DNA of 33,522 nucleotides, taken from positions 1 through 33,522 of the forward strand of contig CAMAVU010000013.1 in the NCBI GenBank assembly GCA_945861935.1, read 5' to 3'. Below the pieces are notes generated by a model. The model did not search any database. It saw only the letters and a list, made by a program, of their open reading frames with translations, and was not told where the DNA came from. Below are positions 3,149 to 24,795 of this stretch, piece by piece. The DNA is from Bifidobacterium breve. Its GTDB lineage: Bacteria > Actinomycetota > Thermoleophilia > Miltoncostaeales > Miltoncostaeaceae. The position numbers and the translations under genes were made by a program. Positions within the stretch are counted from its first letter, which is position 1, and each line of letters begins with the position of its first letter.

Positions 3149-4228
3149 CTGCAACTCGGGCTCGTCGGACTCACCAACGCCGGAAAGACCGCCCTCTTCA
3201 ACCTCGTCACCGGGGGTGAGGCGGAGGTTGCGCCGTACCCCTTCACCACGCGCGAGCCCAACGTGGGCGTGGCCGCAGTCCCGGACCCGCGCATTGACGC
3301 CATTGCCGACGTACAGGACATCCCCCGGCGTGTGACGGCGCAGGTGGAGGTGGTGGACATCGCCGGGCTCAGCCAGGGATCCGGGAGGGGCGAGGGTCTG
3401 GGCGGCGCCGCCCTCGGCCGCATCCGCGAACTCGAGGCCACCGTGCACGTGGTTCGTGCCTTCGCCAACGCCGGGGTTCCCCATCCCCTGGAGCGCGACG
3501 TGGACCCCCTGGCCGACGCCCGGGCCGTGGACGACGAACTCATCCTCGCCGACATCGGTCAGGTGGAGCGTCGCATGGACAGGGTGCAGAAGGGCGTGCG
3601 TGCCGGTGACAGCGCGGCGAAGGTGGAGGCCGCGGCGCTCGAGGCGATGACCGCACATCTGGCGGATGGACGGCCGGTGCGGACGATGGACGACCCGGAT
3701 ACCCGCGAGGTGGGCCGGGCCATGGGCCTGCTCACGGCGCGGCCCGTGCTCTATCTGGTGAACACCGACGACCCCGGCGACCCGCCGGCCGATGTCGCGG
3801 CGTATGCGGTCGAACAGGGCGCGCAGGCGCTGGCCTTGCCCGTGGGGGTCGAACTGGAACTCGCCCGGATGGATCCGGCCGAGGCCGCGGAGTTCGCCGA
3901 GGAGATGGGCCTGGGCACCACCCGGGGCGCCGACGCCGTCATCCGGGCCGGTTACCGCCTTCTCGACCTCATCACCTTCTTCACCGGCTCGGGGCCGCCC
4001 GAGGCGCGGGCCTGGCCCATCCCGCGCGGTACTCCGGCCGACCGGGCCGCCGGGAAGATCCACTCGGACATGGAGCGCGGGTTCATCCGTGCCGAGGTCG
4101 TCCCCTGGGACACGCTGGTGGAATGCGGCTCGTTCGCAAGAGCGCGCGAGCAGGCCCGCGCGCGTATCGAGGGCAAGGACTACATCGTGCAGGAAGGCGA
4201 CGTGATGCAGATCCGGTTCAACGTATGA
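3149..4228 (+). CDS. ychF: YchF/OLA1-type ribosome-associated ATPase, apparent CTG start
   Basis: The protein is about 359 residues (E. coli YchF has 363) and should bind ribosomes and hydrolyse ATP. It has the P-loop GLTNAGKT near residues 7-14, a switch region with YPFTTREPN, the G3 motif DIAGL, and a C-terminal TGS domain (IPRGTPADRAAGKIHSD to the conserved end GKDYIVQEGDVMQIRFNV). Two positions diverge from the usual family: P-loop Ser is Thr, and the nucleotide-specificity loop reads NTDD instead of the usual NxxE. In this frame there is a TGA at 3116 and no ATG, GTG or TTG before the P-loop, so CTG 3149 is the only plausible start. A GGGG run lies about six bases upstream. The first in-frame standard starts would delete the P-loop. 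Confidence 0.88.
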   Translation: MQLGLVGLTNAGKTALFNLVTGGEAEVAPYPFTTREPNVGVAAVPDPRIDAIADVQDIPRRVTAQVEVVDIAGLSQGSGRGEGLGGAALGRIRELEATVHVVRAFANAGVPHPLERDVDPLADARAVDDELILADIGQVERRMDRVQKGVRAGDSAAKVEAAALEAMTAHLADGRPVRTMDDPDTREVGRAMGLLTARPVLYLVNTDDPGDPPADVAAYAVEQGAQALALPVGVELELARMDPAEAAEFAEEMGLGTTRGADAVIRAGYRLLDLITFFTGSGPPEARAWPIPRGTPADRAAGKIHSDMERGFIRAEVVPWDTLVECGSFARAREQARARIEGKDYIVQEGDVMQIRFNV

Positions 4229-4283: not shown

Positions 4284-5024
4284 ATGAAGCCAAGCCCCTC
4301 TCTCGTCATCGCCACCGTCGCCCTCGCCGTCGCCCTCGGGGGCACGACGTACGCGGTCACGTCCCTCCCACGGAACTCGGTCGGCCCCGCTCAGATCAAG
4401 AAGGGTGCGGTGACCGGACCAAAGATCCGAGGCGGGGCCGTCGGGTCATCCCAGATCAGGAACGGCTCCATTTTGGCGATCGACTTCGCACCCGGCGCAG
4501 TGGGCTCCCCGGCCGCCGGTGCCCAGGGCCCCGTCGGTGCGACCGGGCCAGGTGGGGCCACCGGGGCCACCGGGGCCGTCGGGCCGACCCAGGGGTTCGT
4601 CGCGGCCAGCGCGGGCGCGAGTGCGCTACCGGGCTCGGTCCGTGTTTCCAACTTCGTCATCGGGGGGAACCACCCGTTCACCACAACTGTCAGCGGGCGC
4701 ATCCACGTCGCGTTCTCCGCGTGGGTCACGGGGAACTGCAACTCGGGCGGGAGCCCTGGTGTCGCGGTCTTCATTGACCGCGACGATGCGGCGTCGCCGC
4801 CCGCCCCGGGGGTCTTCGTGTCCGGTGCCTACCGTGACCTGTCGGGCAATCCCCCCGGCCTGTTCGTCGGGGACTCCATCGCGATGACCGGCATCACCAC
4901 GAGCGCGGTCGCGGCAGGCACCCACACCATTGGTGCCCGCCTTACGTGTACCGCGAACGTCACGGCGGTCGGTGGCTCCACGTACGGCGCCGCCGGCTAC
5001 ACCGGGATCGTGCTGGGCGGCTAG
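4284..5024 (+). CDS. exported protein with SVGPxQI repeats and a short collagen-like region
   Basis: This 246-residue protein begins with a signal peptide or N-terminal anchor (SLVIATVALAVALGG, about 6-20). Next come imperfect repeats of the type NSVGPAQIKKGAV / SSQIRNGSI (about 31-70), then eight Gly-X-Y triplets at about 79-102, then a beta-rich domain of about 140 residues with two cysteines. The architecture is typical of surface proteins in Thermoleophilia, where the repeat stalk is very common; I know of no assigned function. The collagen-like part is too short for a stable long triple helix but may help trimerise the C-terminal domain, which could adopt a TNF/C1q-like jelly roll (inference). 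ATG 4284 has a Shine-Dalgarno-like GGGAG upstream and starts at the signal peptide. It precedes two more genes for exported proteins. Confidence 0.8.
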   Translation: MKPSPSLVIATVALAVALGGTTYAVTSLPRNSVGPAQIKKGAVTGPKIRGGAVGSSQIRNGSILAIDFAPGAVGSPAAGAQGPVGATGPGGATGATGAVGPTQGFVAASAGASALPGSVRVSNFVIGGNHPFTTTVSGRIHVAFSAWVTGNCNSGGSPGVAVFIDRDDAASPPAPGVFVSGAYRDLSGNPPGLFVGDSIAMTGITTSAVAAGTHTIGARLTCTANVTAVGGSTYGAAGYTGIVLGG

Positions 5025-5058
5025 CGGACCCCGCCGGCGGGCGGCGGAACTGGTGCGG

Positions 5059-5064
5059 TAACAT
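5059..5064 (+). promoter_or_regulatory. candidate -10 (TAACAT) for the secreted-protein gene at 5099
   Basis: TAACAT ends 34 bases before the GTG. An AGGAG Shine-Dalgarno sequence at 5088-5092 lies between, so this would be a normally led transcript. Confidence 0.4.
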
Positions 5065-5098
5065 CCTCGCGCGGTTCCCCTTCGGACAGGAGCGAGTT

Positions 5099-6385
5099 GT
5101 GCTTCGACGCCTTACCGTGATCATCGCCGTGCTCGCGCTGGGCCTGGCGGGCATCGCGACGTCCCAGGCCGGCGCTGCTGAGTTGTTCGGCCACCAGGTG
5201 ACCACGGGCTCGTACCTGCCGGGCGAGGTGGCCGTGGCCGGCCTCGTGCGGGTTACGGACCTCACGATCACCAGCACGGCGGGCGGTCAGGTGACAGCCA
5301 CGGGCACGCTCTACGCCGGCAGCAGCACGACGCCGGTGAATGTGGCGCTCACCTATACGGACGCCGACAACTGGACCGTGAACGTTGAGCGCAACGGCGC
5401 CGGTCCGGGCTATGTGCCCACCAGCACGACCTCGCTCGACATCAACGACGTGGACGGCACGATCACGAGATCCGCCGGCCTCATGAGCTACCAGTTGGTG
5501 CTGCACGGATACGTTCTCGGCGATGCCACCGTCGATATGACGGTGTACATCGACAGCACCGGCTTCGTGGCCACCACCATCGTCGAGGGCCTGCACATCG
5601 GTGGGATGACGCTCACGCACGCGAGCGTGGAGGTCTCGTCCATTGACGAGTTCGCGGAGTTGCAGGCATCGCTCGAGACCTCGGGCGGCAACTTCGACGT
5701 GGACATCAAGGCGACGAAGCCGGGCAACGCGACCCCCGGCCAGTACACGCTGTCCATCGACGTTGAGGGCGCCGAACTGAAGGGTGAATCCAACACGTTC
5801 CTGGTGAACTCATTCTCCTTCCACTACGACGTGACCACGCCCACAATCGGGTGCACGACCATCGACGCGCAGGCCGCGATGTCGGTGACCATGGGCTCCA
5901 CGACCTACTCACTGAACAACGTCCACGTGGTCGTCACGTGCGCCACGCTCACCACGTTCGAGTTCAGCGTGACCGTCTCGCACGTCCAGAAGTGGAACAA
6001 CGTCACGAAGACGGGAACGTTCAGCGTGGCCTGGTACGGCACGCCCGGCACGTTCCGACCCAAGTTCGCGAATCCGATCCGCTATCAGACCGGTTTCTTC
6101 GGAACCGTTGACCTCAGTGCGGGGCGGACATTCTCGAAGAAGTACAAGGGCCGGACCTTCCACCGCGACGTCACAATCGGCATCGGGTTCGGCGCCACCG
6201 TGTACCAGCCGAGAGCCAACGCCCAGTACCAGGGAGGTGCGGGCGCGGTCGGCTACTTCGACGCCGACCGCGTGTCAGGCGACATCGGCTGCGGGATCCT
6301 CGGCAGTGACTTCTCGTGCGAAGGGGAGATGCGCCTGAACCCGTCGTGGGCTGGGGTCTATCACTTCACGTGGGGGGGCCTGTAA
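5099..6385 (+). CDS. secreted beta-rich protein of unknown family
   Basis: I do not recognise this 428-residue protein. GTG 5099 is chosen because it follows AGGAG by six bases and begins a clear signal peptide (LRRLTVIIAVLALGLAGIA, cleavage probably after AGA near residue 28). The mature part is rich in Thr, Ser, Val and Gly with alternating strand patterns, which suggests an all-beta fold. Two halves can be distinguished: about 30-220, with dense threonine strands, and about 230-428, with aromatic-rich strands and four cysteines (two in the GCTTIDA and VVTCATL area, two in CGILGSDFSC) that could form disulfides. It ends in the aromatic stretch AGVYHFTWGGL. The stop overlaps the ATG of the PstS-like gene (TAATG), so the two proteins are probably made together. 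Confidence 0.78.
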   Translation: MLRRLTVIIAVLALGLAGIATSQAGAAELFGHQVTTGSYLPGEVAVAGLVRVTDLTITSTAGGQVTATGTLYAGSSTTPVNVALTYTDADNWTVNVERNGAGPGYVPTSTTSLDINDVDGTITRSAGLMSYQLVLHGYVLGDATVDMTVYIDSTGFVATTIVEGLHIGGMTLTHASVEVSSIDEFAELQASLETSGGNFDVDIKATKPGNATPGQYTLSIDVEGAELKGESNTFLVNSFSFHYDVTTPTIGCTTIDAQAAMSVTMGSTTYSLNNVHVVVTCATLTTFEFSVTVSHVQKWNNVTKTGTFSVAWYGTPGTFRPKFANPIRYQTGFFGTVDLSAGRTFSKKYKGRTFHRDVTIGIGFGATVYQPRANAQYQGGAGAVGYFDADRVSGDIGCGILGSDFSCEGEMRLNPSWAGVYHFTWGGL

Positions 6386-7449
6386 TGCGCATGATGGTCA
6401 GGAGCATCCTGCTCGCCGTGGCTGCGATGGGCGCGGTCGCCAGCGCTGCCACGGCAGCGCCGATCGCTGACGGGGCCGGGGCCGAGCTGCCTGCGCCCGC
6501 CTACAAGGCGTGGTGCACGGCCTCGCACCTGTGCACCTATGCCGTGCGGGATTCCGGAGCCGGGCTTCTGGACCTGAAAACGGGTACGGCCGACTGGGTG
6601 GGCGTGGACGAGCCGCTGTCGGCCAATCAGCAGCGCGAAGCCGGCGGCCCCGTGGCCTACTACCCCACGATGCTCGAGGGCATTGCGGTGGCCGTGCACA
6701 TCCCGGGTCTCGATGGCCATGACATCAACCTGCGCGGCACGACCATCGGCGAGATCTTCGCGGGGGTCATCACCAACTGGAACGACTCGCGCATCCGCGC
6801 CACCAACAAGCGCCACCCGATGCCCCGGAGCATGAGGATCACCCTCTGCGTGCCGAAGCACCCGTCCGGTACCTCGTGGGACTTCAGCGACTATCTGGCA
6901 AAGGTGAGCGGGCTCTACCGCACGCAGGTGGGGGGCGCCTCGATGCTGCCCCACTGGAAGGGGGCGCGCATCATCCGGACCGAGCATGTGACCGAGGTGG
7001 GCGAGTGTGTGGAGTCCCACCCCGGGGCGATCACCTTCCTGCCGTTCTCCGACGCCATGACCGAGGGGCTCTCGCACGACATCATCGCGGTCGGCAAGCG
7101 CGAGCAGGTGACGTATGGCCGCGGGGCGCACCGCACGGTCGTGGCACACGACGTGTTCATGCATCCGACGCAGGAAGACATCAAAGCGGCCGGACACTTC
7201 GCGGCCACCCGGATCTCGGGCGACCTCACGATCGACCTCACCAACAGCCGGGCAAAGGGCGCCTATCCGATCACCGTCGTGGCGTACGCGATCGTGCGCA
7301 AGGACAAGCCCATGACCACGGCGACCCGGAACACGCTGCGTTACTTCCTGGGAGCCACAGCGCAGGGGCGGCTGCCGGGCCTCGGGTCCGCACCGCTGCC
7401 GACGAGCCTGCTGTCCAAAGCCCGTGCGCAGTTGAACGCCGCGAGGTAG
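6385..7449 (+). CDS. PstS-like phosphate-type substrate-binding protein (orphan)
   Basis: This 354-residue exported protein resembles periplasmic phosphate-binding proteins of the PstS family. Matching landmarks are GAGAELPAPAYKAW at the mature N-terminus, VGVDEPLSANQ, the TIGEIFAGVITNWNDSRI segment, SGTSWDFSDYLAKVS (the PstS SGT anion loop) and SHPGAITFLP. A signal peptide spans about 1-24 (SILLAVAAMGAVASAATAA); there is no lipobox cysteine. The SGT loop is kept, but the usual Asp before it is replaced (CVPKHPSGT), so the ligand may not be phosphate. ATG 6385 overlaps the upstream stop. No pstC, pstA, pstB or phoU lies in the window, and the next gene downstream is on the other strand with three bases between stops. 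Confidence 0.82.
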   Translation: MRMMVRSILLAVAAMGAVASAATAAPIADGAGAELPAPAYKAWCTASHLCTYAVRDSGAGLLDLKTGTADWVGVDEPLSANQQREAGGPVAYYPTMLEGIAVAVHIPGLDGHDINLRGTTIGEIFAGVITNWNDSRIRATNKRHPMPRSMRITLCVPKHPSGTSWDFSDYLAKVSGLYRTQVGGASMLPHWKGARIIRTEHVTEVGECVESHPGAITFLPFSDAMTEGLSHDIIAVGKREQVTYGRGAHRTVVAHDVFMHPTQEDIKAAGHFAATRISGDLTIDLTNSRAKGAYPITVVAYAIVRKDKPMTTATRNTLRYFLGATAQGRLPGLGSAPLPTSLLSKARAQLNAAR

Positions 7450-7452
7450 CGG

Positions 7453-8319
7453 CTAGTCGTCGAGCGGGCTGGCGCCCTCGAGCCGCGCCTTGACGCCGGC
7501 CTCGAGGGCATTGGCGCGCCATAGGGCCAGGGCCTCGGGAGAGGCCTGACCGACATGGGCACCGGCGGGCGGGCCATGGTGCCAGCCGATTGCGTGCAGA
7601 AGCGCCAGACGGCGCTCATCGTCGAGGCCGACCGCCTTCGCGGCCTCATCCACCATCTGCTGACCGATGATGAGGTGCCCGAGCATCTTCCCCTCCTCGG
7701 TCTGCTCCACGGTGGCGGACCGCACCTCCCAGGTGCGCGCATGGCCGATGTCGTGCAGCAGGGCCGCGGTGACAAGCAGGTCGGAGTCGAGCCGCGGGTG
7801 CCAGGTGCAGAGCGACTGGCAGAGCATCGCAACGCCCACCGTGTGCTCCACCAGCCCGCCGAGGTAGGCGTGGTGGCCCGAACGGGTGCATGGCACCGTG
7901 CGCCAGGCCTCCGCGAGCACCTCGTCGCCCGTCATCCGGTCGAGCAGGGCGCGCAGCCCGGGCTCGTGCACCTCGTCGGCCAGACCGAGCACGAATCCCC
8001 ACATGTCATCGGGGTCGCGGTGGCTCCGCGGCAGCAGGTCCACCTCGGCATCAGCGGCCTCGGCCGGGCGCAGGGATCGCACGCGAAGCACGATCCGGCC
8101 GCCACGGTCGGTCACCTCGCCGGTGACGCGTACGCGGTCGCCCTCCTCGAACTGCCCGCCGAACCAGTCAGCCTCATCGAAGATGACGGCTGGGATGGTG
8201 CCGGTGGCATCGCCGAGGGTGAGGGCGAGATACGGCGATCCCTTGCGCGACATCCGGCGCTCCTTGCGCCGGACGGCGAAGACCCCCTCCACCGGACGGC
8301 CTGGCTCAAGGGTGGTCAC
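7453..8319 (-). CDS. OB-fold/HD-domain 3'-5' exoribonuclease, YhaM-like
   Basis: The 288-residue protein has an N-terminal OB-fold (about 10-90, SPYLALTLGDATGTIPAVIFDE) and a C-terminal HD hydrolase domain with the metal-binding HH and LLHDIGH motifs. This order is that of YhaM/CBF1, which degrades RNA and single-stranded DNA from the 3' end. The frame is open to a GTG at 8328, but GTG 8319 is preferred. A TAGGGT hexamer lies exactly seven bases before it, matching the leaderless pattern of the window, while GTG 8328 has no usable Shine-Dalgarno. The gene follows the helicase-nuclease gene in the same direction with an 11-base gap, so it may also be read from that transcript. It converges with the PstS-like gene. 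Confidence 0.85.
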   Translation of the reverse strand: MTTLEPGRPVEGVFAVRRKERRMSRKGSPYLALTLGDATGTIPAVIFDEADWFGGQFEEGDRVRVTGEVTDRGGRIVLRVRSLRPAEAADAEVDLLPRSHRDPDDMWGFVLGLADEVHEPGLRALLDRMTGDEVLAEAWRTVPCTRSGHHAYLGGLVEHTVGVAMLCQSLCTWHPRLDSDLLVTAALLHDIGHARTWEVRSATVEQTEEGKMLGHLIIGQQMVDEAAKAVGLDDERRLALLHAIGWHHGPPAGAHVGQASPEALALWRANALEAGVKARLEGASPLDD

Positions 8320-8326
8320 GGGCGCC

Positions 8327-8332
8327 ACCCTA
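8327..8332 (-). promoter_or_regulatory. -10 element (TAGGGT) embedded in the helicase stop codon
   Basis: On the minus strand TAGGGT ends seven bases before GTG 8319. Its first three bases are the TAG stop of the upstream helicase gene. Confidence 0.45.
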
Positions 8333-16643: not shown

Positions 16644-17548
16644 GGCCCGATCCTGCCCGCCGCGCGCACCGGCGTGCCCGCCCCATCGAATGCGACCGCA
16701 TACCGCAGCGCAAGGACCGAGGGGTCAGCCGCGATGGTGGCGGCCGCGGCCCGCGCGGCGGTGATGTCGAGCCCGGCCACGGCGAGCAGGGCCCCGTCGG
16801 CCGGCCGTGCACCGGCGGGCACCAGCACCACCACGGCGCGCGCAGCCCCGACGGGCACCGGTGCCCCGCCCGCGGCGGGCATCAGCACCACCCGCCCCCC
16901 CGCGATGCCCCCGGGCAGCGCCATGCCCCCGGGGTCACCTCCCACCGCACGCCATGCCGGGTCGCGGAGGGCCAGCGATGCATCGGTGCCCACGCGTGCG
17001 CGGAAGGGACGATCGCCCGGCACCACGCGCGCGCCGGCGCGCTCCAGGGCACCCGCCAGCGGCGCATCCGCGGCCACCTCGGGTGCTGCACCACCCACCC
17101 CGTGCAGGAAGGGCTCGGGCCAGGAGCCCACCACGGCGCGCACGCGCGGCATCCCCTCCCACGCGCGGTGGTCCCACCAGGCGATGTCACCGTCGGACAG
17201 ATCGGCGGCTGCTGCCCCCACCGGCGACTCGAAGCCGTTCACGTAGAAGAACCAATCGGCGCTCGGGGACGACGACGATCCGCGGCCCAGCATCGACAGG
17301 ACGAACCCGCCACCGTAGGCCGTCTCCACCGGCGTCACGCCCATGAGCGCGGTCATCACGCTCCGCCCGGGCGCCACGTGCTCGTCCAGCAGCACCTCCG
17401 CACCATGGTCGGCGGTCGCCACCACGCGCGCTGCGGGCTCGCCCGCCGCCGGTCCCGCCGCGGCAGAGCGCCGCTCGCATCCCACTCCCGCGAGAGCCGC
17501 CACGGCGACGAGCGCGGCGGCGGCGGCGGCGGCTGCGCGCCTACTCAT
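16640..17548 (-). CDS. DUF4430-containing probable lipoprotein
   Basis: The 302-residue product starts with a very Ala-rich export signal (about 5-22) ending in ALAGVGC; Cys24 may be lipidated although the -3 residue is Gly, an imperfect lipobox. The segment around ADWFFYVNGFESPVGAA and LSDGDIAWWDHRAW matches the DUF4430 domain, which is related to the C-terminal domain of transcobalamin. The remaining 150 residues are Ala/Gly/Val-rich with repeated strands and no known motif. ATG 17548 overlaps the stop of the FtsX-type permease gene, and the stop overlaps tadA. The coupling suggests it is a substrate or accessory of the ABC system; ligand unknown. Confidence 0.72.
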   Translation of the reverse strand: MSRRAAAAAAAALVAVAALAGVGCERRSAAAGPAAGEPAARVVATADHGAEVLLDEHVAPGRSVMTALMGVTPVETAYGGGFVLSMLGRGSSSSPSADWFFYVNGFESPVGAAAADLSDGDIAWWDHRAWEGMPRVRAVVGSWPEPFLHGVGGAAPEVAADAPLAGALERAGARVVPGDRPFRARVGTDASLALRDPAWRAVGGDPGGMALPGGIAGGRVVLMPAAGGAPVPVGAARAVVVLVPAGARPADGALLAVAGLDITAARAAAATIAADPSVLALRYAVAFDGAGTPVRAAGRIGP

Positions 17549-20090
17549 AGTGCAGGGCGTCAAGCGGGTTGAGGCGCGCCGCGCGCCGCGCGGGAAGGAC
17601 GGCGGCGAGGATGCCGGCCAGGACGGCGACCACGAGGAAGATGGCCAACTGCAGCCATGGGATGCGGAACACGATGCCCTCGTCCTGCAGGCCCAGCGAG
17701 AACACCCACGCGAGCAGCACGCCGAGCACGATCCCGACGATGCCACCGATCCCCGAGGTGATGGTGCTCTCGTACCGCACCATGCGACGCAGTTGGGAGC
17801 GTGTGACGCCGATGGCACGGAGCATGCCGATCTCGCGGGTCCTCTCGGTAATCGACAGCACCAGGGTGTTGACGATCCCGACCAACGAGATGACCACGCT
17901 CATCATCAGGAGCGCGTACAGCAGGTAGAGGATCGAGTCCACGCGACTGCTGATCTCATCGCGGTACTCCGCGTTGGTGCGCACCTCGGCCGCGGGATAC
18001 GCCGCGAGCGCACCCGTAACCGCGTCCTTCACCCGGCCGGGGTCGGCGCCCGGGTCGAGGGTGGCGAGCATGAAGATGGGATCACGCGCGCTCACGACCC
18101 TGGCGATTCCGGTGTCGGATGCCATGAAGCCGCCGTTGAAGAGGATCTGGTCGCGATACAGGCCCACCACGCGGAACCTGGCCGTGTGCGTGGTGGCCGA
18201 GGTCGCCGTGAACGTATCGCCCATCGTCAGGCCCGCACCTCGTGCGAACTCCTCCTCCACCACCGCATCACCCGGGCCGAGGCCTGCGAGTGATGCCTGG
18301 GAGCCGGACACCCACTCCAGGGCCAGCGCGCGCGAGGCCTCATCGGGCTCCACCCCATAGATCATCCCGCGCTCGCCGCCATCCACACGGACCTGATCGG
18401 CGAGGACCGCCGCCACCTCTGCAACGCCGGGGGTACTGCGCACCGCCGTGGTGCTGCCTGCCGGGATGGGCTGGAAGTGCCTGCCCGCCACGATCAGGTC
18501 GCCGCGCAGGCTCCGGTCCATGGCACCGGTGACCGACTCCTTGAGGCCCTGGGCGAACACGGCGACGAAGGCGACGAGGCCGATCCCGATCATGAGGGCC
18601 GCCGCGGTCGCGGCCGTGCGCGACGGGTTGCGGGTGGCGTTCTGGCGGGCCAGGCTGCCCGATACCCCGGGCAGACGTTCGAGCGGCCACCCGAGGATGC
18701 GTGCCAGCCCCGGCACCGCGTACCGGCTGAGGCCGGCGATGGCGACGAACACCAGCAGGGCGCCGAGGGCCATGGTGAGCAGGCGCCGGGTCGCCCCCGC
18801 GTCGCCGGTCAGGGCCAGCGCGATCAGGGCGACGCCCAGAATGGCCACCACACCCGAGACAAGCGGTGCGAACCGCGCGAGGCGGCCCCGCGGGATCTCG
18901 GCACCTTCGCGCAGGGCGGCCACGGGAGGAACGCGGCTCGCGCGCAGGGCGGGGATGACGGCCGCGACCACACTCACGACCACGCCCACGAGCATGGCGG
19001 TGAGCGCGATGTCGAACGAGAACTCGGCCGCTGCCACTGGGATCCCCCCCGGCAGGAGGGCGTTGAACACCCACACGAGGAGCGCGGCGAATCCGTAGCC
19101 GCCGGCGATGCCCACGGCACCCGCTACCAGACCGATGACGAGGGCCTCGCCCACCACCGATGCCATCACCTGACGCCGACTGGCCCCGATGGTGCGGAGC
19201 AGGCCCAGTTCACGAAGGCGCTGGGCCACGGTGATCGAGAAGGTGTTGAAGATGATGAACGCACCCACAAACAGGGCGATGACGCCGAAGGCCAGGAGCG
19301 CCGGGCGCAGGAAGGTGTTGATCGCCTGATCCACCTGGGCGGCCTGCACGGCAGCGTCCTGCTCGCCCGTGAGTACGTCCACCGACCCCGGCAACTCCGC
19401 CGACAGGGTGCGGGCCAGGGCCGCGGGCGTGACACCCGGCGCGGCCTGCACCGCGATGGTGTTCGCGCGCCCCTCCAGGCCGAACCACCGCTGCACGTCG
19501 CCGATGGGCGCGACCACGATGGTCGCGCCACCGATGGAGGTCACGTTGGCGAAGGTGATGATGCCGGTGAGCGTCACGGGCATCACTCCCAACCGGGTGG
19601 CGACGCCCAGATGATCGCCGATCGCGAGGCCCTTCGACGTGGCGAGGGCCTCGTTCACGGCCACCTCGCCGGACCCGACGGGGTAGCGCCCCTCCGTGAG
19701 GTCCGTGGAGCGGAAGGGCTCGGGGGATGCCGAGAACACGAAGGACGGCGCGCCCGTGGACTGCGCGTACTCGCCGTCAATCACCGGCGACCCGAGCGCC
19801 GCGACCTCGGCCACCGCCTTCTCCACGCCCTCGACACCCTCGACGTGCGAAACCAGGGACTCGGGCAGGGTGGGGATGACCCATTGCATGGACTCGAAGT
19901 CCGTACGCGGGGTCACACGTACATCCACCCCCGAGTTGGCCGCCGTGAAGATCTCGTCGAAGGCACGGGTGATCTGGCTGGTCAGCACCAGCGTCCCCGT
20001 CACCATGGCCACCCCGAGCAGGATGGCGATCGCCGTCAGCGATGCGCGCAGACGGCGCTGCCGCAGGCCGGCGAGGATGAGGCGGATCAC
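17541..20090 (-). CDS. large ABC transporter permease with two FtsX domains
   Basis: The 849-residue membrane protein has an N-terminal helix (about 14-34, SLTAIAILLGVAMVTGTLV) and an extracytoplasmic MacB-type domain (about 40-260). A first FtsX domain (about 265-390) is followed by central helices (about 410-520), a second extracytoplasmic domain (about 530-720) and a C-terminal FtsX domain (about 725-849). LLRTIGASRRQV and MLRAIGVTRSQLRRM are the paired cytoplasmic coupling loops. Such duplicated permeases pair with LolD/MacB-type ATPases and mostly move lipoproteins, peptides or drugs by mechanotransmission. The GTG at 20090 overlaps the TGA of the ATPase gene (GTGA), fixing both the start and the partnership. 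Substrate unknown; the coupled lipoprotein gene downstream is the best hint. Confidence 0.9.
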   Translation of the reverse strand: MIRLILAGLRQRRLRASLTAIAILLGVAMVTGTLVLTSQITRAFDEIFTAANSGVDVRVTPRTDFESMQWVIPTLPESLVSHVEGVEGVEKAVAEVAALGSPVIDGEYAQSTGAPSFVFSASPEPFRSTDLTEGRYPVGSGEVAVNEALATSKGLAIGDHLGVATRLGVMPVTLTGIITFANVTSIGGATIVVAPIGDVQRWFGLEGRANTIAVQAAPGVTPAALARTLSAELPGSVDVLTGEQDAAVQAAQVDQAINTFLRPALLAFGVIALFVGAFIIFNTFSITVAQRLRELGLLRTIGASRRQVMASVVGEALVIGLVAGAVGIAGGYGFAALLVWVFNALLPGGIPVAAAEFSFDIALTAMLVGVVVSVVAAVIPALRASRVPPVAALREGAEIPRGRLARFAPLVSGVVAILGVALIALALTGDAGATRRLLTMALGALLVFVAIAGLSRYAVPGLARILGWPLERLPGVSGSLARQNATRNPSRTAATAAALMIGIGLVAFVAVFAQGLKESVTGAMDRSLRGDLIVAGRHFQPIPAGSTTAVRSTPGVAEVAAVLADQVRVDGGERGMIYGVEPDEASRALALEWVSGSQASLAGLGPGDAVVEEEFARGAGLTMGDTFTATSATTHTARFRVVGLYRDQILFNGGFMASDTGIARVVSARDPIFMLATLDPGADPGRVKDAVTGALAAYPAAEVRTNAEYRDEISSRVDSILYLLYALLMMSVVISLVGIVNTLVLSITERTREIGMLRAIGVTRSQLRRMVRYESTITSGIGGIVGIVLGVLLAWVFSLGLQDEGIVFRIPWLQLAIFLVVAVLAGILAAVLPARRAARLNPLDALHYE

Positions 20091-20833
20091 GTGCGGTCGA
20101 GACCCCGGACGGCGTCGAACACCTCGTCGGCGTCCATCCCCGCGCGATCGAGCACCACATGGCCGTCCGACAGCAGCACGACACGATCGGCGACGCTCGC
20201 GGCGGCGGGGTCGTGCGTGACCATCACCACGGTGCGGCCGCCCTCGTCCACGGCGCGGCGCAGCATCTCCAGGATCTCGTGCCCGCTCGCGGAGTCAAGA
20301 TTGCCGGTGGGTTCGTCGGCGAAGATCACCGTCGGGCGGGCCACGAGCGCACGGGCGATCGCGACCCGCTGCTGCTGGCCGCCCGAGAGCTCGGCCGGCC
20401 GGTGGCGGGCGCGGTCGGACAGGCCCACGTCGGCCAGCATCGCGTCAATGCGATCGTCGCCATCGCGGGTTCCGGCGATGCGCAGGGGCAGCGCCACGTT
20501 CTCGCGGGCCGAGAGCATGGGCAGGAGGTTGAAGAACTGGAAGATGAAGCCGACGGATGTCCGGCGGAGCATCGTGAGGTCACGATCCGAGAGCCCGGTA
20601 AGGGGAGTGCCGTCGAGCACGACGGAACCTGCGGTGGGCCGGTCGAGACCGGCCAGGCAGTGCAGCAACGTGGACTTCCCGGAGCCCGATGGCCCCATCA
20701 CCGCCGCGAACTGCCCGCGGGGGAACGTGATGGTCACATCCACGAGGGCGTCAATCGCCGCCTCGCCGTCGCCATAACGGCGGCCCAGGCCCTCCGCGCT
20801 CACCGCCGGCCCACGATCACCATCGCCCGTCAT
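20087..20833 (-). CDS. ABC transporter ATPase, MacB/LolD type
   Basis: The 248-residue ATPase has Walker A GPSGSGKS, Q-loop FQFFNLLP, signature LSGGQQQR, Walker B VIFADEPTGNLD and the H-loop His in VTHDP. The FNLLPMLSARENV segment is typical of the MacB/LolD group that drives FtsX-type permeases. ATG 20845 lies 12 bases upstream in frame, but ATG 20833 is preceded by GGAGGAG at ideal spacing, so it is preferred; either gives the same domain. It is the first gene of a four-gene operon (ATPase, permease, DUF4430 lipoprotein, tadA), each linked by overlapping stop and start codons. Confidence 0.92.
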   Translation of the reverse strand: MTGDGDRGPAVSAEGLGRRYGDGEAAIDALVDVTITFPRGQFAAVMGPSGSGKSTLLHCLAGLDRPTAGSVVLDGTPLTGLSDRDLTMLRRTSVGFIFQFFNLLPMLSARENVALPLRIAGTRDGDDRIDAMLADVGLSDRARHRPAELSGGQQQRVAIARALVARPTVIFADEPTGNLDSASGHEILEMLRRAVDEGGRTVVMVTHDPAAASVADRVVLLSDGHVVLDRAGMDADEVFDAVRGLDRT

Positions 20834-20856
20834 GTGCTCCTCCATGTCCGCGCGGC

Positions 20857-20862
20857 ACGATA
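20857..20862 (-). promoter_or_regulatory. candidate -10 (TATCGT) for the ABC-exporter operon
   Basis: On the minus strand TATCGT lies 23 bases before ATG 20833, with the GGAGGAG Shine-Dalgarno between. Confidence 0.45.
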
Positions 20863-20898
20863 GCGCGTGAACACGGGTTCCTGTTTGGGCGATGGGGA

Positions 20899-20928
20899 TT
20901 GCCGTTAGAGGCCTCGGGGCGCTAGCGT
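20899..20928 (+). promoter_or_regulatory. candidate promoter for fbpC
   Basis: TTGCCG (20899-20904) and TAGCGT (20923-20928) are spaced by 18 bases. The start codon is 12 bases downstream, so the leader would be at most a few bases. Confidence 0.45.
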
Positions 20929-20940
20929 GCTGGACCCGAG

Positions 20941-22014
20941 ATGGAGACCCTGCCTCCTCACATCGAGATGTGCCCAGCCGTGCCGACGCGGAGCGACCCG
21001 CGTGGGTCGGCTCTGGCGATCCGTGGTGTCGAGCGGGTGCTGGGCGGCAAACCGGTTCTGCGTGGCATCGGCCTCGATGTTCCCGCGGGCACCGTGATGG
21101 CCCTGCTCGGGCCCTCGGGCTGCGGCAAGACCACTCTGCTGCGTTGCATCGCGGGTCTCGACCGGCCCGACGCGGGCATGATCGCCGTGGACGACTTCAC
21201 CGTGTCCGGCCCGGACTGCTTCGTGACCGCCGAGAGGCGCCGCGTCGGCATGGTGTTCCAGGAACCCGCCCTCTTCCCCAACCGCACGGTTGGCGGGAAT
21301 GTGGGCTACGGACTTCCACGCCCGGAGCGAGGTGGCCCGCGTGTGGATCGTGCGCTCGCGCTGGTGGGACTCACCGGTACCGCCGACCGGATGCCCGCGA
21401 CCCTGTCGGGCGGACAGCAGCAACGCGTATCGCTCGCGCGGGCGCTGGCCGCCGAGCCATCGCTCATCCTCCTCGACGAGCCCTTCGCCGCCCTCGATGC
21501 TCCGCTGCGCGCCGGGCTCCGGGGTGAGGTACGGCGCCTGCTGGCCGCGGCCGGGGCCACGGCGGTCTTCGTGACGCACGATCAGGAGGAGGCCTTCCTC
21601 ATCGGCGATCAGGTCGCCCTGATGCTCGAGGGCCGCATCGCGCAGGTCGGCACGCCGGACGACCTGTACGAGCGACCCGCCAGCCGCGCGGTGGCCACGT
21701 TCGTTGGCGACGCCAATCTGCTCCCGTCCGAGGCCGTCGGATATGTGGCGCACACACCCGTGGGTGACGTGCCCCTCGCGCGCCCGGCGCACGGGAGAGT
21801 TGAGGTCGTCATCCGCCCCGAGTGCGTGGCCGCACGCCGCGGGAGCGACGCCGTGGTGGAGCGCGTCGAGTACTACGGACACGACGCCGTCATCGTCACC
21901 AGCAGCCGCGGCTGTCCCGTGCGATGCCGGGTCATGGGACGACCGCCGTACAACGTTGGCGACCGCATCGACCTGGAATACGTGGGCGAGCCGAGCGTGG
22001 CCTTCGCGCCGTAG
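20941..22014 (+). CDS. fbpC: ferric iron ABC transporter ATPase, FbpC-like
   Basis: The 357-residue ATPase has Walker A GPSGCGKTT, Q-loop VFQEPALFPNRTV, signature LSGGQQQRVSLARAL, Walker B ILLDEPFAALD and H-loop VTHDQEEAF. A C-terminal regulatory beta domain (about 250-357, with IRPEC and VEYYGHDAVI) is typical of the FbpC/PotA group. Iron is inferred from the neighbouring FbpA-like binding protein with a Tyr-Tyr pair; polyamine or thiosulfate uptake would be the alternatives. ATG 20941 follows a promoter but has no Shine-Dalgarno; the first 25 residues are an unstructured-looking lead. The order C-A-B differs from the usual A-B-C. Confidence 0.85.
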   Translation: METLPPHIEMCPAVPTRSDPRGSALAIRGVERVLGGKPVLRGIGLDVPAGTVMALLGPSGCGKTTLLRCIAGLDRPDAGMIAVDDFTVSGPDCFVTAERRRVGMVFQEPALFPNRTVGGNVGYGLPRPERGGPRVDRALALVGLTGTADRMPATLSGGQQQRVSLARALAAEPSLILLDEPFAALDAPLRAGLRGEVRRLLAAAGATAVFVTHDQEEAFLIGDQVALMLEGRIAQVGTPDDLYERPASRAVATFVGDANLLPSEAVGYVAHTPVGDVPLARPAHGRVEVVIRPECVAARRGSDAVVERVEYYGHDAVIVTSSRGCPVRCRVMGRPPYNVGDRIDLEYVGEPSVAFAP

Positions 22015-22021
22015 TGCATTT

Positions 22022-22037
22022 GTCTAATGGTTATGAC
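22022..22037. promoter_or_regulatory. AT-rich imperfect inverted repeat, candidate metal-responsive operator
   Basis: GTCTAATGGTTATGAC is an inverted repeat GTC-TAA / TTA-GAC with one extra base, just upstream of a TAGAGT -10 (22041-22046). It stands out from the GC-rich surroundings. It does not match the full IdeR/DtxR consensus. Confidence 0.35.
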
Positions 22038-22040
22038 CTA

Positions 22041-22046
22041 TAGAGT
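22041..22046 (+). promoter_or_regulatory. candidate -10 (TAGAGT) for fbpA
   Basis: TAGAGT in CTATAGAGT lies about 34 bases before the fbpA start. TTGTCT at 22020 is a possible -35, although the 15-base spacing is short. Confidence 0.4.
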
Positions 22047-22079
22047 GGCCCCCGTCCGTTCTGACCACGTCACGAGGAG

Positions 22080-23132
22080 ATGGAGTTGACCATCCGTCCG
22101 TGGGCCCTCATCGGCTCATCCATTGCCACCGTCGCATCGGTGTTCGTGCTGTCTGCGTGCGGGGGCCCGGCCGATTCCACCGCGTCCACCTCGGCCTCCA
22201 CGGGCGACTCGCTCACCGTCTACTCCGGCCGTGAGGAGGAGTACATGGCGCCGGTCTTCCGTGCATACGAGAAGGCGACCGGCATCACCCTCGACGTCCG
22301 GTACGGCGACTCAGCCGACCTCGCCCTCCTGATCGGTGAGGAAGGGGACGACACCCCTGCCGACGTCTTCATCTCGCAGAGCCCCATCTCGCAGTCGTAC
22401 GTCGACCAGCAGGACCTGCTGTCGGCGCTGCCGCAGGAGGTGCTCGACCGTGTCCCCAGCGGGCTGCGTGCCGCCGATGGCGACTGGGTCGGTATCGCAG
22501 GACGACAGCGGGTGCTCATCTACAACACCGATCTGGTCAAGGAGTCGGACCTTCCCCAGTCCGTGCTCGACCTGACCGACCCGAAGTACGCGGGCACGGT
22601 GGCGGTGGCGCCGTCCAACGGATCGTTCCAGGACTTCGTCGCGGCGCTCGACCAGCTGGAGGGCACCGCGGAGACCGACGCCTGGCTGAAGGGCATGGCC
22701 GCGAACGGAGCGAAGGCGTACGCCAAGAACAGCGCCATCGCCGACGCGGTGATGCGCGGCGAGATCGCGATGGGTCTGGTGAACCACTACTACGTCCTGG
22801 AGATCAAGGAGGACGACCCGGACGCTCCCGTGGCCGCCTACCGCTTCCCGGGCACAGACCCCGGCAGCCTGTTCCTCGTGGCCACGGCCTCCGTGCCGGA
22901 GGCGAGCGACGACCAGGAGCAGGCCGAAGCCCTGCTGGCGTACCTGCTCTCCGACGCGGGGCAGGGGCTGCTCGTGGCGGGCGAGGGCGAGTACCCGACG
23001 GTCATGGGCATCGCACCCGCAGAGGGCGCACCCTCTCTGACGGAGAACGACTACCCGGCATATGACCTGTCCGGCCAGACCGATCTGAAGGCGGTGGCCC
23101 AGCAGATCCGGGAGAGCGGCCTCGCGGACTAG
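22080..23132 (+). CDS. fbpA: ferric iron-binding lipoprotein, FbpA-like
   Basis: The 350-residue precursor has a lipoprotein signal with lipobox LSAC (Cys27), followed by a Ser/Thr-rich linker. It belongs to the class of binding proteins with FbpA features: LTVYSGREEEYMAPVF at the mature N-terminus and the NHYYV motif (Tyr237-Tyr238), where the tyrosine pair binds Fe(III). Periplasmic-type closure segments (VAVAPSNGSFQDFV, RFPGTDPGSLF) also match. ATG 22080 directly abuts GAGGAG, so the in-frame TTG at 22086, six bases from GAGGAG, may be the true start; the product is nearly the same. It lies 65 bases after fbpC with its own likely promoter and operator. Confidence 0.88.
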   Translation: MELTIRPWALIGSSIATVASVFVLSACGGPADSTASTSASTGDSLTVYSGREEEYMAPVFRAYEKATGITLDVRYGDSADLALLIGEEGDDTPADVFISQSPISQSYVDQQDLLSALPQEVLDRVPSGLRAADGDWVGIAGRQRVLIYNTDLVKESDLPQSVLDLTDPKYAGTVAVAPSNGSFQDFVAALDQLEGTAETDAWLKGMAANGAKAYAKNSAIADAVMRGEIAMGLVNHYYVLEIKEDDPDAPVAAYRFPGTDPGSLFLVATASVPEASDDQEQAEALLAYLLSDAGQGLLVAGEGEYPTVMGIAPAEGAPSLTENDYPAYDLSGQTDLKAVAQQIRESGLAD

Positions 23133-23155
23133 CCGTACGACGGGGGGTGCGTGGG

Positions 23156-23179
23156 GGGCCACCGCGATCGCGGTGGCCC
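23156..23179. repeat. perfect 24-bp palindrome spanning the fbpB start codon
   Basis: GGGCCACCGCGA is followed directly by its reverse complement TCGCGGTGGCCC. The fbpB GTG (23173-23175) lies in the right arm. In RNA it would form a stable hairpin between fbpA and fbpB. Confidence 0.7.
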
Positions 23180-24795
23180 TCACCGTGCCCTTCGTCCTGC
23201 CGTTCGCATACCTGCTGGTCCGGAACGCGGAGGACCTCGCGGGACTGTGGGGGACCCTCGCGGACAACAGTCTGGTCGGACCGCTGCTCCGGAGTTGTGT
23301 GCTCGGCATCTCCGTGGCAGCCGCCGCCGGGGTGCTCGGCACGGCTGCTGCGTGGCTGGTGGCGCGCACCGACCTGCGTGGCCGGCGCATCTGGGCCCTC
23401 CTTCTGTGCCTGCCGCTGGTCATCCCGTCGTTCGTGGGCGCAGTCGCGCTCATCGCCGCATTCGCGCCCGGCGGCATCGTGGAGGACATGCTCGGAATCG
23501 CGTGGCTGCCCGACATCAGCGGATTCCGCGGGGCGTTCATCGTGCTGACTCTGCTCACGTTCCCCTACGTGTTCCTGCCGGTCATGGCGCGGCTCAGGTC
23601 TCTGTCACCCGCACTCGAGGAATCCGCGCGGCTGCTGGGACGTCGCCCTCTCTCGGTGTTCCTCACGGTGGTCGTGCCGCAGGCGCGTGCGGCCATCGCC
23701 GCCGGCGCGCTGCTGGTGTTCCTGTATGTCATCAGCGACTTCGGCGCCGTCCAGTTGCTGCGCTACGACACGCTGACGCGCGCGATCTACTCGGACCGGC
23801 TGCTGGATGCCACCAGGTCCATGGCGCTCAGCCTGGTGCTGGGGCTGCTGGCCGTCGGCATCGTGGCACTGGAGCGGCGGTCGTCGCGGGTGGGTCTCCG
23901 TGACCATGCCCGGGGGGGGTCGCCCCTCATCGTGCCCCTCGGCGGTGCGCGGCGGGGCGTGGCCTACGGCTTCCTGACGGTGCTGATCGGAATCGCCCTG
24001 ATCGCCCCGATCGCCGTCCTGGCGTTCTGGGCCATCCGCGGGCTGGCCCAGGGATCGCCCGACGCAATGTCGGTCGTGGGTGACCCCGGCCTGATCGCCG
24101 GGCCCCTTCTCAGCACGGTGGGCGTGAGCGTGGTCGCCGCCCTCGTGACCACCGCCATCATCCTTCCCATCGCGTTCCGCACGGTGCGCCGCCCCGGGCG
24201 CCTGGGCGAGGCGCTGGCGGGAGTCGTCGTGGGCGGATTCGCCCTTCCGGGCCTCATCACCGCCCTCGCGTTGGTCTTCTTCACGCTGTCCGCGCCCGGC
24301 GCGATCGGTGCGCTCTACCAGACACTTCCGCTCCTCGTGCTCGCCTACGTGGTGCACCACGGCGCGCTGGCGCTGGGCGCCGCGCAGTCCGCAGTGGCCA
24401 GCATCCCGCAACGCCTCGACGACGCCGCGCGCATCATGGGCAAGGGCAGATGGCAGCGCTTCGCGGGCATCGAACTCCCCCTCATGCTGCCGGGCCTCGC
24501 GGCGGGCGCCGGCCTCGTCCTCTTGTCCACGGCGAAGGAGTTGCCCGCCACCCTGCTCCTGGCCCCGCCCGGCTTCTCGACCCTGGCCACCAAGGTCTGG
24601 CAGGCCGCGGAGATGGCCGCCTACGAGGACGCTGCGATCTTCGCCCTCGCCCTGGTGGCGATCTCGGGCGTGCTCACATGGTTCCTGGTGGTGCGCCCAG
24701 CCCTGCGCTCATGGGCGACCCCGGTGCCGGGCGCCGCGCCCACAGGACCGGAACCACCCACGGCAAGCCGTGCCCCGGAGCCGACGACCCCATAG
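23173..24795 (+). CDS. fbpB: ferric iron ABC transporter permease, FbpB-like (two fused domains)
   Basis: The 540-residue permease has two homologous halves of about six helices each, as in FbpB/SfuB. Each half carries an EAA coupling loop: EESARLLGRRPLSVFLTVVVPQ (about 150-172) and DDAARIMGKGRWQRFAGIELP (about 415-436). The last 25 residues are a hydrophilic Pro/Thr-rich tail. The only possible start between the in-frame TGA at 23086 and the first helix is GTG 23173, which has no Shine-Dalgarno and sits inside a palindrome, 40 bases after the fbpA stop. With FbpA and FbpC it completes an iron uptake system. A duplicated palindromic repeat follows the stop. Confidence 0.88.
   Translation: MALTVPFVLPFAYLLVRNAEDLAGLWGTLADNSLVGPLLRSCVLGISVAAAAGVLGTAAAWLVARTDLRGRRIWALLLCLPLVIPSFVGAVALIAAFAPGGIVEDMLGIAWLPDISGFRGAFIVLTLLTFPYVFLPVMARLRSLSPALEESARLLGRRPLSVFLTVVVPQARAAIAAGALLVFLYVISDFGAVQLLRYDTLTRAIYSDRLLDATRSMALSLVLGLLAVGIVALERRSSRVGLRDHARGGSPLIVPLGGARRGVAYGFLTVLIGIALIAPIAVLAFWAIRGLAQGSPDAMSVVGDPGLIAGPLLSTVGVSVVAALVTTAIILPIAFRTVRRPGRLGEALAGVVVGGFALPGLITALALVFFTLSAPGAIGALYQTLPLLVLAYVVHHGALALGAAQSAVASIPQRLDDAARIMGKGRWQRFAGIELPLMLPGLAAGAGLVLLSTAKELPATLLLAPPGFSTLATKVWQAAEMAAYEDAAIFALALVAISGVLTWFLVVRPALRSWATPVPGAAPTGPEPPTASRAPEPTTP

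Follow-up and report, generated by a model that had tools for sequence, protein, structure and literature searches.

A PstS-like protein with replaced phosphate ligands and its overlapping exported neighbour, a putative functional pair in a Miltoncostaeaceae genome

Introduction

Does a PstS-like protein still serve phosphate uptake when its gene overlaps that of an exported protein with no family match and lacks pst genes beside it? This question is raised by a locus on contig CAMAVU010000013.1 (assembly GCA_945861935.1, deposited as Bifidobacterium breve and placed by GTDB in the Miltoncostaeaceae). The 33,522 nucleotides of this contig, hereafter the window, are contig 13 of a genome of 1.60 Mb that is 96% complete. 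Between the genes of the YchF GTPase and of an OB and HD domain protein lie three genes on the plus strand, P0001, P0002 and P0003, of which P0003 encodes the PstS-like protein and P0002 the overlapping neighbour (Table 1). We present evidence that P0002 and P0003 are inherited as a unit, and that P0003 descends from a phosphate-binding protein whose ligands have been exchanged.

Results

P0002 and P0003 as a conserved unit

Using profile searches we found P0002 in 7 of 20 genomes of the genus. Full-length orthologues of P0003 (55-100% identity) are located next to it in the same seven genomes, in which the remaining PstS-like matches are at most 43% identical to P0003. In the window, the P0002 stop codon and the P0003 start codon lie on TAATG and have one base in common. 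A stop-start overlap is present in all seven carriers, with a length of 1 base in four and 4 bases in three of them. The original prediction had described a 428-residue protein without family whose stop overlaps a PstS-like gene and had asked for conserved co-occurrence; the overlap and the joint conservation in 7/20 genomes bear this out, and the case that would have refuted it, a pair not kept together in any relative, does not apply. One further genome, G018, harbours a relic of 70 residues with 59% identity to P0003 between its YchF and HD genes, which suggests that it once carried the pair and then lost it. Apart from this relic, neither gene occurs alone in the 20 genomes, and the conserved overlap would favour matched amounts of the two products. 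As judged from these genomes, P0002 and P0003 are an evolutionary unit with overlapping genes.

To estimate selection, the ratio of non-synonymous to synonymous substitution rates (dN/dS) was calculated with a script by the Nei-Gojobori method. Between the window and G009, dN/dS was 0.34 for P0002 and 0.21 for P0003. In two other genome pairs P0003 had values of 0.18 and 0.21, and the C-terminal parts of P0002 had 0.16 and 0.19; the value for YchF was 0.12. Both genes are constrained, less than YchF.

All three proteins encoded between YchF and the HD protein start with a hydrophobic stretch without cysteine, judged by eye, and are putatively of the exported type. This agrees with the three consecutive export-type N-termini of the original prediction.

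Ancestry and pocket of P0003

P0003 matches the family PF12849 (PBP_like_2) with 71 bits at a cut-off of 27, and PstS proteins of the PDB with an E value of 1.1e-28 (phmmer), the homology extending over nearly its whole length. Against the PstS equivalog TIGR00975 it scored 125.3 bits, under the cut-off of 205. The four other pair proteins that were scanned reached 100-136 bits, and all five thus miss the cut-off, which was passed by all three scanned paralogues (221-235 bits), with the two from its own genome at 221 and 231 bits. Four cysteines are common to P0003 and two paralogues of its own genome.

In a tree of the seven pair proteins, 22 paralogues and E. coli PstS, the pair proteins form one clade with a support of 100/100 and a stem of 1.49, compared to 0.05-0.47 for the other inner branches; five of the seven pair rows have an unusual letter make-up, and long branches also lead to E. 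coli PstS (its end branch exceeds the stem) and to the paralogue G015:C99.

We take the nine phosphate ligands of PstS to be, in E. coli numbering, Thr/Ser10, Phe11, Ser38, Asp56, Arg135, Ser139, Gly140, Thr141 and Asn177. Seven of these nine positions would match the ligands of PhoX given in PMC5439949, if the PhoX numbers are shifted by 24. P0003 keeps five ligands (38, 56, 139, 140 and 141) and replaces four (10, 11, 135 and 177). Table 1 lists the residues found at most of these positions; in addition, position 11 is Leu or Met in all seven pair proteins and position 38 is altered in three. The genus has 30 further PstS-like matches, 28 of which served as controls; the short pieces G016:C101 and G008:C7 (internal stop) were left out. 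Those paralogues that cover the respective position retain Phe11 (25/25) and Ser38, Asp56, Ser139, Gly140 and Thr141 (27/27 each). Over the nine positions the net charge is -2 to -4 in the pair proteins versus 0 in E. coli PstS. That the residue context of the anion loop is changed, as noted originally from a single sequence, can now be counted over seven pair proteins against 28 paralogues. By established PstS chemistry, phosphate binding by P0003 would be unlikely, because Arg135 is lost and a Glu is fixed at position 10. By this comparison, P0003 goes back to a phosphate-binding protein of the PstS type, and its ligands have given way to other residues that are themselves largely fixed.

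A separate phosphate transporter

The window itself was expected to lack pst genes, and this was confirmed: its ABC genes at positions 17541-24795 score at most 146 bits for PstB (cut-off 343), and neither PstC nor PstA is among the families listed for them. Every one of the 61 genomes searched had a match to the PstC model, which exceeded the cut-off in 56 of them. In the genome of the window (G000), PstC is over the cut-off on contig C62, its open frame also contains a second permease match, and a PstB over its own cut-off follows this PstC/PstA open reading frame (ORF). A PstS that keeps the phosphate ligands is encoded near the end of contig C61. Since PstS directly precedes PstC in G009 and other genomes, we infer that C61 and C62 join. 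By these matches, the separate pst system for which a check had been proposed is present in the genome, away from the pair.

On C62, PstC and PstA are found as one fused ORF of 650 residues (L065:5588-7540, minus strand), and many of the genus and family genomes, though not all, likewise have open frames of about 570-760 residues that contain matches of the PstC type. A third PstS-like protein of the genome is encoded on C1 (L019:7343-8398). It has a lipobox-like cysteine and all nine ligands, and its gene is located away from pst genes, near apparent respiratory complex I genes (identified by eye).

P0002, a beta-rich protein of no known family

P0002 had no family in Pfam or NCBIfam at E values up to 1 and no match in PHROGs up to 0.01. 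A profile of ten members of the P0002 family found nothing among PDB sequences at E values up to 10. When these ten members and six longer or distant ones were searched with Pfam, none was above a cut-off; one distant relative showed DUF748 at an E value of 0.17, a weak match far under its cut-off. DUF748 is AsmA-like, and P0002 may resemble AsmA-like or other repeating beta-groove lipid proteins. A clear match to a known enzyme, which would have refuted the original prediction, was found neither in Pfam and NCBIfam nor among PDB sequences.

The proposed structure prediction of P0002 alone was run. A first model had a mean predicted local distance difference test (pLDDT) of 50 and was kept out of structure searches. 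A second one, made by AlphaFold2 with repeat rows added, had a mean pLDDT of 65, with 66-86 in blocks of ten across residues 31-200. In this model P0002 is predicted to be beta-rich and antiparallel. Foldseek found nothing for it at an E value of 0.001 or better. In a second look with VIA-align, the top Z score was 11.2 to apolipoprotein B, with a root-mean-square deviation (rmsd) of 14.3 over 278 residues, followed by BamA with a Z score of 11.0 and an rmsd of 3.6 over 125 residues. The matches are spread over barrels and apolipoprotein B, with barrel fragments among the weak ones, and come from a model of low to middling confidence; they probably reflect an extended antiparallel sheet, not a family.

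Members of the P0002 family contain one or three copies of a repeat of about 130-150 residues. The window protein has a single copy, and two extra N-terminal copies are present in four relatives, three of which are 710-725 residues long; the fourth, in G003, is split over two frames. In this gene (L032:7353-9505) the two frames overlap, and the break separates the repeats from the C-terminal part; it may be a frameshift, an assembly error or a real split.

Among 101 genomes (its own counted), P0002 was found in seven, every one from the genus. When its profile was run on 399 genomes of the class, relatives came up in three more (G124, G162 and G232), and an extended profile run on 396 genomes of the phylum gave another three, with a strong match in G482 and two weak partial ones. 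In a class-wide search of the 399 genomes with the P0003 profile, with five candidates scored in most genomes, the seven pair proteins reached 630-662 bits; no other protein exceeded 315 bits and the best outside the genus had 248. We infer from these distributions that the P0002 family extends beyond the pair and predates it, with P0003 having been joined to P0002 within this genus.

P0001 and the variable slot between YchF and the HD gene

The original prediction had treated P0001, called collagen-like, as part of a secreted trio. P0001 has about eight Gly-X-Y triplets, counted by eye, and matched no family in Pfam or NCBIfam at E values up to 1, hence no collagen repeat; of the label only this short tract stands, and it is weak. 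Its family has matches in 18 of the 20 genus genomes, five of them in its own genome. In PHROGs, a family of phage tail fibres was matched by residues 21-86 (E value 1.5e-9). P0001 belongs to a multi-copy exported family. The trio as a unit was rejected: P0001 is not located beside five of the six other pairs, with that side of the sixth (G006) lying off the contig, and two genomes, G011 and G014, have a P0001-type gene in this slot but lack the pair. P0001 is a separate cargo of the same slot, to be dropped from the unit.

The slot is legible on at least one side in 15 of the 20 genomes; of the other five, G012 and G019 have the HD gene at the edge of a contig, and no HD gene was found in G004, G007 and G016. 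Seven genomes carry the pair as cargo (in G006 the contig stops inside P0002). In four (G002, G005, G008 and G017) the slot is empty or almost so (gap length about 10-250 bases), and in G018 the gap of about 208 bases contains the relic, which corresponds to the C-terminus of a P0003-type gene. G014 also holds a second ORF without Pfam family. Acetyltransferase, PAS kinase and response-regulator genes, identified by eye, are present in the slot of G010, and genes like these adjoin the pair in G003 (Pfam). This small slot between YchF and HD is variable: it takes cargo of three or more kinds, in combinations that differ among genomes.

In the ORF list, no ATG, GTG or TTG precedes 3263 in the frame of YchF, yet homology begins at about 3149; the start codon may be unusual.

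Table 1. Positions of the genes and codons discussed, in the numbering of the window
Feature	Position	Strand	Basis or remark
YchF GTPase gene	3149..4228	+	constant left edge of variable slot; synteny among relatives
P0001, exported protein of 246 residues with short Gly-X-Y tract, ATG start	4284..5024	+	ORF; outside conserved pair
P0002, predicted beta-rich, putatively exported protein of 428 residues, GTG start, TAA stop; first gene of pair	5099..6385	+	ORF
Single beta-repeat copy in P0002 (residues about 49-197), approximate	5243..5689	+	repeat comparison with relatives
P0003, PstS-like Venus-flytrap protein of 354 residues, ATG start; second gene of pair	6385..7449	+	ORF
Glu34 codon, aligned with ligand Thr10	6484..6486	+	Glu in 7/7 pair proteins; Thr/Ser in 25/25 covering paralogues
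Asp75 codon, aligned with Asp56	6607..6609	+	kept in 7/7
Pro157 codon, aligned with ligand Arg135	6853..6855	+	Pro in 7/7; Arg in 27/27 covering paralogues
Ser161-Gly162-Thr163 codons, aligned with Ser139-Gly140-Thr141	6865..6873	+	position 141 Glu in 5/7, Thr in P0003
Val202 codon, aligned with ligand Asn177	6988..6990	+	Val/Met in 7/7; Asn in 26/27 covering paralogues
OB and HD domain protein gene	7453..8328	-	constant right edge of variable slot

Discussion

We consider the chances about evenly balanced that P0002 and P0003 work as a functional pair, with P0003 a neofunctionalised Venus-flytrap protein for something other than phosphate and P0002 its repeat-variable, beta-rich partner. Both proteins would be made from the overlapping genes and exported. 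P0003 would no longer bind phosphate nor serve the Pst permease, and would act outside the membrane together with P0002, which as an antiparallel beta protein may display or hold it. A cationic or amine ligand could fit the acidic pocket of P0003, as could a side chain of P0002. Such a pair would probably serve to capture an extracellular solute or for surface attachment, and capture or sensing is placed slightly ahead because the Venus-flytrap fold is kept under purifying selection. The suggestion that the pair does not feed a transporter gains ground as far as Pst is concerned, since the remade pocket and the missed equivalog cut-off speak against feeding a Pst transporter. In a narrower version, the former anion receptor would now bind a ligand of positive charge, or serve as the socket in which its partner docks, and would be displayed outside the membrane on a beta-scaffold whose length depends on the number of repeats. 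The two together would then be a transporter-free surface solute trap or sensor, of a kind that did not come up in the literature searched; this version is speculative and on balance unlikely.

Several observations weigh against a functional pair with a changed pocket. Asp56, Ser139 and Gly140 are kept in all seven pair proteins. Of 53 columns that are invariant in the 22 paralogues, the pair clade has changed 22 and keeps 31 in all seven members; seven of these columns are ligand columns, of which four are changed and three kept (P = 0.31 versus all invariant columns). A statistical excess of pocket loss is thereby rejected, and the pocket changes could belong to general divergence. Our argument rests on the identity of the replacing residues, not on their number. 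Outside the genus, relatives of P0002 manage without the partner: the P0003 profile had no match in G124, G502, G162 and G232, the last two of which are only 82-84% complete, and the two weak PstS-like matches in G482 are located on other contigs, as are the two in G730. Finally, the pair is missing in 13 of the 20 genus genomes, several of them incomplete, so the genus can do without it.

Some of the same observations fit mere operon mates without contact, in which P0002 would act by itself as an exported surface protein and P0003 would bind a solute independently of it, perhaps for another transporter. No PstS-like gene adjoins the P0002 relative in G162 and G124, the genomes of other families in which the neighbourhood is visible (the contig of G232 stops just past the gene), and the YchF-HD slot holds unrelated cargo in other genomes. 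However, within the genus neither gene stands alone save for the relic in G018, and the overlap with its expected matching of product amounts is kept in 7/7 carriers. We regard independent operon mates as rather less probable than a functional pair, though as the strongest of the alternatives.

P0003 might also still deliver phosphate or an oxyanion to the Pst permease, as a second PstS with a tolerant pocket. The nearly full-length homology to PstS and the three retained ligands would fit this, and, according to PMC5439949, PhoX of Xanthomonas citri is such a second PstS-type receptor encoded outside the pst operon. PhoX, however, retains its ligands according to the same source, whereas P0003 and its six orthologues are without Thr10, Phe11, Arg135 and Asn177. 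Moreover, a Glu is found where the anion should sit, the score stays under the PstS equivalog cut-off, and two paralogues in the same genome retain the ligands. A persisting phosphate receptor is therefore improbable in our view. Least probable is a gene pair decaying under relaxed selection and heading for loss: the absence from 13 genomes, the relic in G018 and the two frames of P0002 in G003 would agree with it, but it is already weakened by dN/dS values of 0.16-0.34, by replacement residues that are fixed (Glu10 and Pro135 in 7/7) and by a P0003 frame that is open in all seven carriers.

Annotation by homology would list P0003 among phosphate receptors and credit these small uncultured actinobacteria with additional capacity for phosphate uptake, an assignment at odds with the pocket. 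P0003 would be a clear natural example of a binding protein that has taken on another task, and the paralogues that retain the ligands provide controls within the same genomes. The pair also opens a first way to the function of an exported beta-repeat family that is unnamed in the libraries searched. In the literature on PstS paralogues, Thermoleophilia and Miltoncostaeales, with few subscription journals covered, no title or abstract described the pair.

Among known systems, PstS is closest to P0003, with near full-length homology and Asp56, Ser139 and Gly140 of the pocket in common. It differs in that P0003-type proteins replace four of the nine ligands in 7/7 cases and Thr141 in 5/7, and in that the P0003 gene has P0002 and the HD gene at its flanks instead of pst genes and overlaps the gene of another exported protein. 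PhoX of X. citri, described in PMC5439949 as a PstS paralogue outside the pst operon that keeps the phosphate ligands, resembles P0003 in being a PstS-type protein encoded apart from pstSCAB; on this account it differs in the very ligands that P0003 has lost. P0002, with its predicted long antiparallel strands, recalls beta-meander proteins such as outer-membrane barrels and apolipoprotein B, but given a mean pLDDT of 65 and no Foldseek match at an E value of 0.001, this resemblance is probably generic.

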